Positions 2,748 through 51,995 of a stretch of 64,000 bases of DNA are shown here, in pieces (position 1 is the first letter of the stretch; every line of letters starts with the position of its first letter). Under the pieces are notes generated by a model. It had not been told where the DNA came from, made no database searches, and was given only the letters and a program-made list of their open reading frames with translations. The DNA lies in contig JACPWS010000012.1 of the NCBI GenBank assembly GCA_016196925.1, positions 1 through 64,000 on the forward strand. Reading direction: 5' to 3'. Origin of the DNA: Burkholderiales bacterium (GTDB taxonomy: Bacteria; Pseudomonadota; Gammaproteobacteria; Burkholderiales; Burkholderiaceae_D). The translations under genes and the position numbers were made by a program.

Positions 2748-2924
2748 CCGCGAAAGGTGTAGCGGGGAATTCGGGTAGCAAGCTACCCGCCCGCGCAACG
2801 ACTTGAGCATGCATGCTCAAGCGCGCCCTGCAAGCGGGAATCCATGTACATCAAACACTCAGGTGTATCTCCGCTTTCGCGGGGATGACGAAATCGGAAT
2901 AAATCCGTGATTCCTTAAAACGGC
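2748..2924 (+). repeat. REP/MITE-like two-hairpin unit with nested palindrome module, copy 1
   Basis: Long version of the dispersed unit. It contains the module GGTGTAGCGGGGAATTCGGG with palindromes GGGTAGCAAGCTACCC and CTTGAGCATGCATGCTCAAG, then AGCGGGAATCCATGTACATC and a hairpin CCGCTTTCGCGG, ending AATCCGTGATTCCTTAA. The 5' terminal arm is not well preserved here. It sits immediately 3' of the patatin gene stop. Confidence 0.65.
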
Positions 2925-4009
2925 AAGATGCGCGCCGGATCGGGGTTGTCCGCGAAGGCAGCGAATTCGTCGCGCAGGCGCTCGCTTTCGGCGATCGCGA
3001 TTTTCCAGTTGCGCGCGCGCAGATCGTGTTGCAAGCCGTAGTGGCTAAAGTCTTTGCGGTCGGGCAGCTTGCTGCGCGGCAGGCTGCGCACGAAGTCCGC
3101 CGAGGGTGACAGCATGATCACGTTATCGAGCCAGTCGCGATTTTCGCCGCGGCCGGCGCGCCGCCATGGCAGCGGCTTATCGAGCCAGCCCGGCACGATG
3201 TGGTCGGTGAAGTGCGGATACAGCACCAGCGCGCCTTCCTCGCCGGCGGTCAGGCGCGAGTAGGGCAGCGCCAGGTGGTAGTCGATCATGCCACCGTCCC
3301 AGTACTGGCCGTTCGGCGCATGCGCGATCCGGGTGACCGGCTGCATGATCAGCGGCAGGGTGCCGGAGGCCAGCAAGGCCGATGCGAGATTGTCGGGCGT
3401 CAGCGACGAGAAATGGGTATCGAAATTATCGAACTTCGCTTTCAGCCAGTACAGCGGATCGCGCAAGTCGCCGATCACCATCCTGTCCATGTGGCGGGCC
3501 AGGCGCGCGCGCGAGGCGAGGTTGGCCAGGCCGGCGGCGGCGAAGCCGGCCCTGGTCCCCAGTCTGCTCCCGGGCGCCGCCAGCCAGCCGCGCCCGCGCA
3601 TCGCCAGCACTTGCAACCGGTGCAGCGGCTGATGGGCGATTTCCTGTTCGTGCCCGCCTATAAATTCCTGCAACAATTGCTTGATGATGGACGTCACTTC
3701 CTGCGGACCCGGCCTGGCCGTATAGGTCTGGGCGCAATACAAATCGCCGAGACGGCGGAAGGCCGCCGCCGGGTCGGCATGGCTGGCCGCCGCCATGCGC
3801 CAGGCGCCTATCGAGGCCCCGATCAGCGTGCGTACTCTGGGCGCAGCCGGCAGCCACTCGCCGAACAGCCACTGATCGAGCGCCTGCAGGATCAAGCCCT
3901 TCGGGCCGCCGGCCGCAGCCGGAAGCACGGCGATGTCTTGCGCTTGCAGCCCATGCGCGCGGATATGCGCGAGCGCAGTCTTGCCGGCGCGGATTTCCAG
4001 GGCCTTCAT
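2915..4009 (-). CDS. Patatin-like phospholipase family protein
   Basis: Predicted serine lipid acyl hydrolase. The sequence shows an oxyanion-type stretch [12 protein letters not shown] near residue 30, the nucleophile elbow GASIG, and a DGGMIDYHL segment that supplies the Asp of the Ser-Asp dyad. The ORF track extends the frame to 4357, but that part is only the alternative frame of pth; the ATG at 4009 ([10 protein letters not shown]) overlaps the pth stop as ATGA, which fits translational coupling and gives 364 residues. No signal peptide is seen, so it is probably cytoplasmic. The true substrate is unknown; the patatin call rests on the two motifs and overall layout. Confidence 0.8.
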
Positions 4010-4578: not shown

Positions 4579-4612
4579 GGGATGCTGGTGTTGGTGTTTG
4601 GTTGTGAATGAT

Positions 4613-4868
4613 TGTCCACGAAAAACACGAAAGGCACGAAAAAAAACGAATCAATAATAAATTGCCGTCATCCCCGCGCAGGCGGGGATCCAGTGACTGT
4701 TGGTAGTTACGACACTGGATTCCCCCTTGCAGGGCGCGCTTGAGCATGCATGCTCAAGCCGTTTCGCAGGCGAGCAGCATGCTGCTCGAATTCCCTGCAA
4801 CACCCTGCGCGGGAATGAAAAAATGGAGGTTTTAGTTCTTTTCGGGCCTTTCGTGTTTTTCGTGGACA
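4613..4868. repeat. 256-bp inverted-repeat element between uvrA and pth, carrying a nested REP unit
   Basis: The ends are near-perfect inverted repeats of about 33 bp beginning TGTCCACGAAAAACACGAAA (4613-4645 and 4836-4868; the arms differ at roughly three positions). Inside (about 4665-4817), in reverse orientation, is a REP-type unit with the palindromes CGAGCAGCATGCTGCTCG and CTTGAGCATGCATGCTCAAG. No protein is encoded. It fills essentially the whole gap between the uvrA stop and the pth start. Confidence 0.75.
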
Positions 4869-4877
4869 GCGCTCTCC

Positions 4878-9698: not shown

Positions 9699-9732
9699 GA
9701 TATACCGAAGGAAGCACAGATTTAACCGGAAT

Positions 9733-9838
9733 TCGTCATCCCCGCGGAAGCGGGGATCCACCTAAGTGCTTGATTTACATGGATTCCCGCTTTCGCGGGA
9801 ATGACGCGTTTTGATTTAATCTGCGTTTCCCTAAGTTA
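9733..9838 (+). repeat. REP/MITE-like two-hairpin unit, copy 3
   Basis: Shows the two hairpins ATCCCCGCGGAAGCGGGGAT and ATTCCCGCTTTCGCGGGAAT separated by CCACCTAAGTGCTTGATTTA, and the terminal arm AATCTGCGTTTCCCTAAG. It lies 35 bp after ssb and reads as a short copy without the nested palindrome module. Confidence 0.75.
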
Positions 9839-14721: not shown

Positions 14722-14735
14722 CACTAAGGAGCCGC

Positions 14736-14938
14736 AGATTAATCCAAAAAGCGTCATTCCCGCGCAAGGTGTAGCAGGGAATTCGGGTAGCATGCTACCC
14801 GCCTGCGTAACGACTTGAGCATGCATGCTCAAGCGCGCCTTGCAAGGGGGAATCCAAGTAAATCAACCGCTTAGGTGGATCCCCGCTTTCGCGGGGATGA
14901 CGAAATCCGGTTAAATCCGCGCTTCCCTAGTGTTTGCC
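14736..14938 (+). repeat. REP/MITE-like unit with nested palindrome module, copy 4
   Basis: The most complete long copy. Terminal arms: GCAGATTAATCC at the left and GGTTAAATCCGCGCTTCCCTAG at the right. The first hairpin, ATTCCCGCGCAAGG…CTTGCAAGGGGGAAT, is opened by an ~80-bp module that holds GGGTAGCATGCTACCC and CTTGAGCATGCATGCTCAAG, both perfect palindromes. The second hairpin is ATCCCCGCTTTCGCGGGGAT. It separates the GlpV-like gene from the PhnD-like/kinase pair. Confidence 0.8.
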
Positions 14939-21761: not shown

Positions 21762-22454
21762 ATGGCTAGACTGGCCCGACTCGTTATCCCCCATCAGCAA
21801 CACCACCTGATTCAGCGCGGCAATGCCGGCACGCCGATTTTCCGCGACACGCAAGATTACGCCATGTTTCTCGACTGGCTGAAAGAAGCCGCGAGGCAAT
21901 TTCAGGTCGCGATTCACGCCTATGTGTTGATGCCCGATCATCTGCACCTGTTGCTGACGCCGGCCGACGAGAGTGGTTTGGGGAAAATGATGCAGTGGCT
22001 GGGGCGTCACTATGTCCCTTATTTTAATCGCAAATATCAGCGCAGCGGCACGCTATGGCAAGGGCGTTATCGCGCCACCGTGATCGAGGCGGCGCGCTAC
22101 TTCGTGCCTTGCAGTATTTATATAGAAAGCAATCCGCTGCGCGCGGAGCAGGTGGCCGATGCGGCCGATTATCCGTGGTCCAGCTATCGGCACCATATAG
22201 GCATGCTGATCGACCCCCTGATTACCGATCATCCCTTGTACTGGGCGCTCGGCAACACGCCATTCCAGCGCGAAGCCGTGTACCGCGAGCAGATGCAGGC
22301 GTCCTTGCCGGAGAGGGAAATGCGTGAATTGACGCTGGCCACGCTAAAAGGCTGGATGCTCGGTTCCGACGCTTTTAAGGCAGAGATGAGCAAATTGACA
22401 GCGCGCCGCGTCGAACCGATCAAACGCGGCCGGCCACGCAAACAGGGCGTTTGA
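21762..22454 (+). CDS. REP-associated tyrosine transposase (RAYT, Y1_Tnp family)
   Basis: Single-copy-type HUH/Y1 transposase of the TnpA-REP class, thought to nick single-stranded REP hairpins. The 230-residue protein begins MARLARLVIPHQQHHLIQRG, has the HUH pair in MPDHLHLLL, and the family stretch RSGTLWQGRYRATVIE leading to IYIESNPLRA…YPWSSYRHH. The candidate nucleophile Tyr lies in the helix SIYIESNPL or nearby. The C-terminus is basic (KRGRPRKQGV). The gene is flanked by a terminator upstream and, 80 bp downstream, by an ATACTCCCC repeat copy, and a GGGGACA/GGGTCA-type remnant occurs further on. It is the only transposase in the window and a plausible source for one of the dispersed families. 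Confidence 0.9.
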   Translation: MARLARLVIPHQQHHLIQRGNAGTPIFRDTQDYAMFLDWLKEAARQFQVAIHAYVLMPDHLHLLLTPADESGLGKMMQWLGRHYVPYFNRKYQRSGTLWQGRYRATVIEAARYFVPCSIYIESNPLRAEQVADAADYPWSSYRHHIGMLIDPLITDHPLYWALGNTPFQREAVYREQMQASLPEREMRELTLATLKGWMLGSDAFKAEMSKLTARRVEPIKRGRPRKQGV

Positions 22455-22533: not shown

Positions 22534-22614
22534 ATACTCCCCCCTTATTTTAGGTTTTTTAGCTTGTCGTCAGCGTGTTTATTGGCCTTGAAAATATACC
22601 AGAGGGGAGTATTT
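22534..22614 (-). repeat. ATACTCCCC element, copy 2
   Basis: About 81 bp, 80 bp downstream of the RAYT gene. On the minus strand: AAAATACTCCCCTCTGGTAT, then GGCCAATAAACACGCTGACGA, then an A-rich stretch ending GGGGGGAGTATG. Core and ends match the copy at 2644-2724. Confidence 0.65.
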
Positions 22615-22695
22615 TACGGCAGCTTAAACGCCTGAGGCCGTGCCGCCGCTTCCGCAGCCAGATGGAACGTCTGTGCGTATGTATAGGCCGATATT

Positions 22696-36052: not shown

Positions 36053-36084
36053 CCGTAGCGGCGAGGGCGGGCTGCTAGGAAAGC

Positions 36085-36204
36085 ACCGATTTAATCGGAT
36101 TTCTTCATCCGCGCGAAAGCGGGGATATAGCTAAGTGTTTGATTTACATGGATTCCCGCTTTTGCGGGAATGACGCTTTTTGAATTAATCCGCGTTTCCC
36201 TAGG
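36085..36204 (+). repeat. REP/MITE-like two-hairpin unit, copy 5
   Basis: AATCGGATTTCTTCATCC, hairpin CGCGCGAAAGCG, spacer TAGCTAAGTGTTTGATTTAC, hairpin ATTCCCGCTTTTGCGGGAAT and end AATCCGCGTTTCCCTAG. It abuts the stop of the sulfatase-like gene. Confidence 0.75.
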
Positions 36205-38140: not shown

Positions 38141-38227
38141 GCGATTTGCTGTGTTAAAAATACCGGGCAGCACCAATACAGATATCGATGTCAGCGCTGT
38201 GATGGCGATGTTGTGGTGAACAGAACC

Positions 38228-38362
38228 TAAGGAGACACGGATTTATTCCGATTTCCTCATCCCCGCGAAAGCGGGGATACACCCAAGTTTTTGATTTACA
38301 TGGATTCCCGCTTTCGCGGGAATGACGCTTTTTGATTTAATCTGCGTTTCCCTAAGGAACTT
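38228..38362 (+). repeat. REP/MITE-like two-hairpin unit, copy 6 (clearest terminal inverted repeats)
   Basis: Ends CCTAAGGAGACACGGATTTA and TTTAATCTGCGTTTCCCTAA are inverted repeats of about 20 bp. Inside are hairpins ATCCCCGCGAAAGCGGGGAT and ATTCCCGCTTTCGCGGGAAT with spacer ACACCCAAGTTTTTGATTTA. This copy best shows the whole unit of ~130 bp. Confidence 0.8.
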
Positions 38363-40438: not shown

Positions 40439-40562
40439 CTAAGGAAACGCGGGTTCAATCCAAGCGCGCCATTCCCGCGAAAGCGGGAATCCATGTTGAT
40501 CAAATACTTAGATGGATCCCCGCGGGGATGACGAAAATTGAATTAATCCGTGATTTCTTAAT
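40439..40562 (-). repeat. REP/MITE-like two-hairpin unit inside the mla operon, copy 7
   Basis: Left end CTAAGGAAACGCGGGTTCAA, hairpin ATTCCCGCGAAAGCGGGAAT, spacer CCATGTTGATCAAATACTTA, shortened second hairpin ATCCCCGCGGGGAT, right end AATTAATCCGTGATTTCTTA. It begins right at the mlaE stop codon and fills most of the mlaE-mlaD gap. Confidence 0.8.
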
Positions 40563-51840: not shown

Positions 51841-51873
51841 TTCCGGCGATTTGTTTAGTTTTCCTCTGGGAGG

Positions 51874-51995
51874 CGCAGAAAAATTCGGAGTTCGTCATCC
51901 CCGCGCAAGCCGGGATCCATCTGAGTTCTCGATTCACCTGGATTCCCGCTTGCGCGGGAATGGCGTCGTTAGCGTTAATTTGCGTTTCTTTAGTT
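51874..51995 (+). repeat. REP/MITE-like two-hairpin unit between hisH and hisA, copy 8
   Basis: ATCCCCGCGCAAGCCGGGAT and ATTCCCGCTTGCGCGGGAAT hairpins with spacer CCATCTGAGTTCTCGATTCA, right end TTAATTTGCGTTTCTTTAG. The terminal arms are more worn than in copy 6. Confidence 0.75.

Follow-up and report, generated by a model that had tools for sequence, protein, structure and literature searches.

We found that a 78-bp module, present three times in the stretch of 64,000 nt analysed here (referred to as the window), is an insertable unit with a conserved fold, of which the stem sequences change freely, and that it exists in about 90 copies in its own genome and in many genomes of the family and the order. 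On the balance of the evidence we slightly favour reading the module as a non-autonomous element of some 78 bp, built of hairpins, which would be dispersed as a folded single strand by an enzyme acting in trans. The features of the window on which the analysis is based are listed in Table 1.

Table 1. Module copies, hairpins of copy 1 and host elements in the window
Feature	Position	Strand	Description and basis
Module copy 1, 78 bp	14769..14846	+	In loop of CGTC-type REP, after ...CGCGCAAG; model R2 91.9 bits, E 8e-24; filled/empty comparison
Module copy 2	2757..2834	+	R2 86.0 bits; upstream host REP left arm absent; sequence
Module copy 3	4726..4803	-	R2 93.9 bits; in REP dimer with different flank; sequence
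Hairpin A	14774..14806	+	Lower stem GCAGG/CCTGC, bulge GAATT (14779-14783), upper stem CGGGTAG/CTACCCG (14784-14801), tetraloop CATG; fold, covariation
Hairpin B	14813..14834	+	Stem CTTGAGC/GCTCAAG (palindrome 2, 14814-14833), loop ATGCAT here, TTGCAA in most copies elsewhere; fold, covariation
Small right-end hairpin C	14838..14847	+	CNCTGCAAGNG type; last base is the host's, usually pairing with model position 74; pairing in 92/96 copies
Host composite element, filled by copy 1	14724..14929	.	Ends CTAAGGA...TTCCCTAG, inward REP dimer; repeat families D3-D5, alignment
Left REP arm before module	14752..14768	+	CGTCATTCCCGCGCAAG; sequence, CGTC family description in PMC3733652
Host element, empty	9704..9835	-	Repeat families, alignment
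Host element, empty	36073..36204	-	Repeat families, alignment
Host element, empty	38225..38356	-	Repeat families, alignment
Host element, empty	40439..40561	+	Repeat families, alignment
Host element, empty	51863..51994	-	Repeat families, alignment

Host repeats and insertion joints

The original prediction, which was made from the window sequence, placed the module in three units, and it was indeed found in all three. Palindrome 2, CTTGAGCATGCATGCTCAAG, which had been claimed to be identical throughout, matches exactly at 2802-2821, 4739-4758 and 14814-14833 (chance expectation 0). For palindrome 1, the sequence reads CGGGTAGCATGCTACCCG at 14784-14801, and the reverse unit has CGAGCAGCATGCTGCTCG at 4771-4788; the two differ, as described, by two pair changes that are both compensated. 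In the 2748 unit the palindrome is CGGGTAGCAAGCTACCCG (2772-2789), with the loop centre altered and the stem unchanged. Perfect palindromes of 20 bp or longer number 3 in the window, against 0 in 20 shuffles. The module was further expected to open the first REP hairpin in each of the three units; this agrees with the unit at 14769, but the left REP stem arm is missing in the 2748 unit, so that the outer REP hairpin cannot form there. The 2748 and 14765 units share as host the composite element with CTAAGGAAACGC-like ends, and unlike these two, the 4726-4803 unit lies within a REP dimer flanked by CACGAAA. On both sides of this last host (window 4600-4660 and 4838-4870) are repeats of the type CACGAAAA(A/G)GCACGAAA, which recur around other REP dimers genome-wide.

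The REP hosts are CGTC REPs (dRS3) of the kind described by Di Nocera et al. (2013, PMC3733652), which carry a CGTC tag, a stem of 8-9 bp and a CCA tail and form head-to-head dimers. The host segments 14752-14768 and 14847-14855 have the CGTC tag, the 8-9 bp stem starting with AT, the loop of 4-5 nt and the CCA tail, whereas the module itself does not. REPs are known targets for other elements, and REPs located inside palindromes have been described, with no such loop insert among them (PMC3733652). The module differs from the CGTC REP in being an insert in its loop with two stems of its own, and in occurring also outside REPs, within G-rich and other repeats that lack a REP stem.

After alignment of the filled element with the five short copies, which had been said to lack the module and are the same host element in empty form, the module stood out as a clean 78-bp extra, ...CCCGCGCAAG^[GTGTAGC...TTGCAAG]^GGGGAATCC. 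At the 14.7-kb locus itself, no alignable relative in the genus has the element after the upstream gene; since the downstream genes of the relatives differ, this comparison indicates absence rather than a precise empty site. Empty sites were also sought in 1.4 Mb of DNA as host flanks joined without the module, and of 160 copies, 62 had such counterparts, which belong to several unrelated repeats; a few of the counterparts are tandem neighbours and not true empty sites. The filled and empty pairs of several unrelated hosts share the joint G^[GTGNAGC...CTGCAAG]^N, with the same geometry in most cases: the module starts with GTGNAGC directly after G, and its commonest form ends in CNCTGCAAG. Examples of the empty joint are CCCGCGC-AGGC-GGGAATCC (in a REP), TACGGCA-AGGC-GGCGCAAC, TTCTGAGT-AGGC-GCGCC, GGCCG-GGGT-GAGGGATTGAGCG, AGGGTTA-GGGT-GGGGATGGG and TGTCTGAG-CG-TAGCGAG; the insertion target is very short, about RRG or NNG. 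Because one joint is common to the filled and empty versions of unrelated host repeats, the module is a separate insertable piece, as had been proposed. The joints (G^GTG...AAG^N) show neither terminal inverted repeats nor clear target duplication, the features of a MITE of a DDE transposon, and the module contains no ORF.

At the right end, model position 74 in the module pairs with position 82, a host base, in 92 of the 96 copies with the commonest right end (CG 80, AT 8 and GC 4; unpaired CC in 4), and most of the remaining copies carry a second type of right end (TCCTT...). In loci such as L214, L075 and L002, the host letter that follows the module is the complement of the one at N in CNCT (CACTGCAAGT, CGCTGCAAGC and CCCTGCAAGG), as if the end paired with the target.

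Covariation of the two stems

As a single strand, the module folds with z = -5.0 as DNA and -4.7 as RNA. The alignment of 29 REP-embedded copies gave a three-way layout, composed of the REP stem, the bulged hairpin A and the hairpin B, in which nine pairs were changed on both sides, with 38 double-change cells against 12.8 in shuffles (0 of 500 shuffles as high). The covariance model R1, built from 29 aligned close copies, picked up many further copies with wholly different stem letters, and a core model, R2, was constructed from 60 diverse copies. These 60 copies align without gaps, with 98.0% of the cells paired (73.3% after shuffling) and with 325 double changes (89 after shuffling) in 16 of the 20 pairs; shifting the partners by 1-3 columns lowers the pairing to 28-44%.

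As a non-circular test of the covariation, GTDB genomes were scanned with a pattern of the conserved letters in which both arms were set to N. In about 100 distinct copies thus collected, Watson-Crick pairing was observed in 473 of 490 cells for arm A (shuffled mean 211, maximum 249) and in 714 of 808 cells for arm B (shuffled mean 368, maximum 411), with 44 and 62 distinct sequences, respectively, in the two arms. Next to no variation is seen in the junction GNAACG, in the bulge GRWTT, in either loop (CATG and TTGCAA) or in the lower stem of hairpin A, and the exact module length is kept in 140 copies. The covariation therefore persists when many copies are aligned, which was the check proposed together with the prediction, and the strong covariation of both stems supports the view that the fold is conserved, rather than the stem sequence, of which the letters change freely.

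Two deviating forms were noted. One copy (L020; G000:C64:68714-68820) is devoid of hairpin A, a loss that looks like the outcome of slippage between a pair of CCGCGCAA repeats. In the own genome, a divergent subfamily (L031 and L022), 'GGAATCTTCGCTTGCAAGCGAAGATCGTT' with arm B ATCTTCGC, occupies a REP of the CGTCATTCCGGCG type, with normal copies next to it.

Copy number, distribution and the nearest published repeat

Using R2, 91 places were detected in the own genome of 3.5 Mb at E<=1e-4, and about 32 close copies residing in CGTC-type REPs were recovered by nucleotide search; the core is 78-82 bp in length. With R1 the module was detected in 79 of 146 genomes of the family (30 of 44 genera). 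Among the named hosts within the whole survey are Undibacterium, Massilia, Herbaspirillum, Herminiimonas, Collimonas, Glaciimonas, Duganella, Cupriavidus, Methylophilus and Methylotenera. It was found in 45 of 399 genomes sampled from the order and in 8 of 399 from the phylum, with four weak matches outside the order, so that the covariance model finds the module across family and order and almost never beyond. The matches to gammaproteobacterial genomes (L291-L294) have low scores, with E about 1e-8, and could reflect convergence; two of these, in two genomes (L291:1501-1581 and L293:1501-1581), are weak single-copy core matches at the stop codon of a rimK-like gene. No module was detected by a pattern scan of IMG/VR and a phage search, and in the plasmid search it was present only in the megaplasmid record of C. 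metallidurans CH34 and one other C. metallidurans record. Tandem module copies occur, for example in L166 and L186. Of 129 modules, 126 are outside the ORFs that a strict caller predicts, mostly in convergent or tandem gaps. In one case (L145:1946-4327, minus strand) a G-rich host repeat with the module (3393-3474) is in frame inside an ORF of 793 aa, apparently tolerated between domains; the product presumably resembles indolepyruvate ferredoxin oxidoreductase.

The nearest published repeat is BRE (Beta-proteobacterial repeat element; Hot et al. 2011, PMC3110155), which the accessible part of that paper describes as 75-91 bp, GC-rich, intergenic and sometimes in tandem with a few letters between, found through an RNA-structure screen, with signs of mobility and up to 29 copies, and located, for instance, at B. 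pertussis 3605317-3605401. The module agrees with this account in core length, in its betaproteobacterial (order-wide) distribution, in its intergenic location and in its tandem copies, and by these features may be BRE or a relative. It differs in that a covarying fold, nesting in or linkage to REPs and empty-site joints do not appear in the accessible text on BRE, and in that BRE copies are fewer (PMC3110155). One BRE locus is linked to lexA; no module was present beside lexA in the loci examined.

A proposed mobile hairpin element and its rivals

The hairpin element favoured above would be composed of the bulged hairpin A, hairpin B and the small hairpin C at the right end, with conserved unpaired letters linking them. 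It would insert after a G, in REP loops and in several other repeats, and would thereafter multiply passively with whatever repeat hosts it. The form acted on would be the folded single strand, most likely ssDNA exposed at replication forks, and the enzyme in trans would recognise the loops, the bulge and the junction rather than the stem sequence. ssDNA is preferred because of the lack of gene-direction bias, the many unrelated insertion sites, the lack of terminal inverted repeats and target duplication, and a weak replication-strand lean. Three genomes in which dnaA lies close to the beginning of the contig gave 73 copies in lagging and 43 in leading orientation (p = 0.007), with no lean in one of the three; since this count assumes a terminus opposite dnaA and includes tandem copies that are not independent, the lean towards the lagging strand is weak and suggestive only. 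Against the hairpin element stand this weakness of the strand lean, the failure to find a mobilising gene, and again the absence of terminal inverted repeats and clear target duplication. More tentatively, such modules could represent betaproteobacteria-wide minimal hairpin transposable elements, with machinery outside the known REP and IS200/IS605 enzymes that recognises only loops, bulge and junction of the folded strand; the stem letters would then be free to drift in pairs, and other palindromic repeats would be open to colonisation.

Short elements derived from IS200/IS605 likewise have two hairpins, insert 3' of a short motif without terminal inverted repeats or target duplication and show a weak lagging-strand lean, but the stem sequence of the module is free and its target motif is very short, against their fixed 4-5 nt. 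The mitochondrial double-hairpin elements (DHE; Paquin et al. 2000, as far as cited in PMC10085805) are also tiny, two-hairpin, GC-rich, intergenic and apparently mobile without a known enzyme, but they belong to fungal mitochondria, have no sequence link to the module and are present in far fewer copies. The module appears to resemble DHE and the hairpin ends of IS200/IS605 in its working, while it does not share all the membership features of either.

There is perhaps a modest chance that the module is instead a structured RNA (a small RNA or an mRNA 3' element, perhaps processed), carried as a passenger of repeats, with its fold kept because the RNA is used. The plus-strand RNA is the stabler by a mean of 1.7 kcal/mol, in 106 of 140 copies, which were however chosen with plus-strand wobble allowed. 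Wobble at pair 48-69 (25 G.U, 0 A.C) points in the same direction, while outside this pair the ratio of G.T to A.C in the N-arm copies is 25:16, with no strand singled out. Modules are in convergent far more than in divergent gaps (31 vs 6), but between tandem genes their orientation is even (14:17), without bias to gene direction. BRE, possibly the same repeat, gives a Northern band of 70-80 nt; this transcript, BprJ1 of Hot et al. (accessible part of PMC3110155), would favour RNA if BRE is this element. On the other hand, both strands fold, no relevant family was found in Rfam at the gathering score or at E<=1, and about 90 copies at unrelated places, together with the empty sites, point to mobility and not to a gene-linked function.

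Template switching in imperfect palindromes, in which one arm is copied from the other, is a documented mechanism that can yield paired changes without selection (PMC8794818), and the short-looped palindromes of the module would be good substrates. It is possible that template switching at replication is a non-selective source of part of the covariation, but that the compensatory changes are mainly such a mutational by-product seems doubtful. Copies alike outside the arms mostly show a single arm-pair difference (81 of 110 for arm A, 58 of 102 for arm B), which neither needs nor excludes this mechanism; moreover, it would not maintain the loops, bulge and junction, which are yet nearly invariant, nor the exact length retained in 140 copies.

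It is also rather unlikely that the module is a REP unit, domesticated or derived, and that RAYT (TnpA-REP) moves it, in which case hairpin A, its bulge and the 5' GNAG would correspond to a GTAG-type REP. Both are intergenic, high-copy, bulged single-strand hairpins in which letters 5' of the foot are conserved, and TnpA-REP of E. coli needs GTAG and the bulge (PMC8266576). The second letter of the module tag GNAG at the foot of hairpin A is, however, free (T 66, A 33, G 21 and C 20 in 140 copies), and the module has in addition a second hairpin with its own conserved junction and no linked RAYT. A Y1_Tnp (RAYT-like transposase) gene at 21762-22454 (+), about 7 kb from copy 1 and the only one found in the own genome, has no flanking module. 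No module was present near any of 31 Y1_Tnp loci, nor was an element with tnpA/TnpB and the ends of the module detected there in a search that was not exhaustive. Y1 is near-ubiquitous in the family genomes, and the module is present in 6 of 13 genomes without Y1 and in 73 of 133 with Y1 (Fisher p = 0.57); one genome (G122, 93% complete) carries at least 24 module copies with no Y1 match. With no linkage at the 31 loci and no association across the 146 genomes, RAYT/IS200 gains no support as the mobiliser. Two similar stretches of the window, 22536-22620 and about 2640-2720, are of the form ATACTCCCCC...TTTT...GTCGTCAGCG...AAAATATAC; the former directly follows the RAYT-like gene and terminates in an inverted end, GGGGAGTAT, and the two are possibly the cognate repeat of this gene.

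That the module is a longer CGTC REP subtype with a grown loop and no mobility of its own is very improbable, for although the about 32 copies in CGTC REPs could have spread with the REP, the same core is present in several unrelated repeats with matching empty sites, including G-rich hosts without a REP stem.

The three main claims of the original prediction stand, and to these are added the non-REP hosts, the bulge GRWTT, the junction GNAACG, the loops CATG and TTGCAA, the third hairpin and the order-wide spread. The covariance model would allow annotation of the module by others, and if the module is BRE, then its fold, insertion joints and REP nesting are added to the accessible account of that repeat. 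With 44 and 62 stems over about 100 copies on a background of constant loops, length and junction, the module is a small repeat in which nature has run an unusually clean covariation experiment. For CGTC REPs and repeats like them, a dedicated transposase is lacking according to Di Nocera et al. (PMC3733652), and the module offers a concrete route to the question of what moves them.
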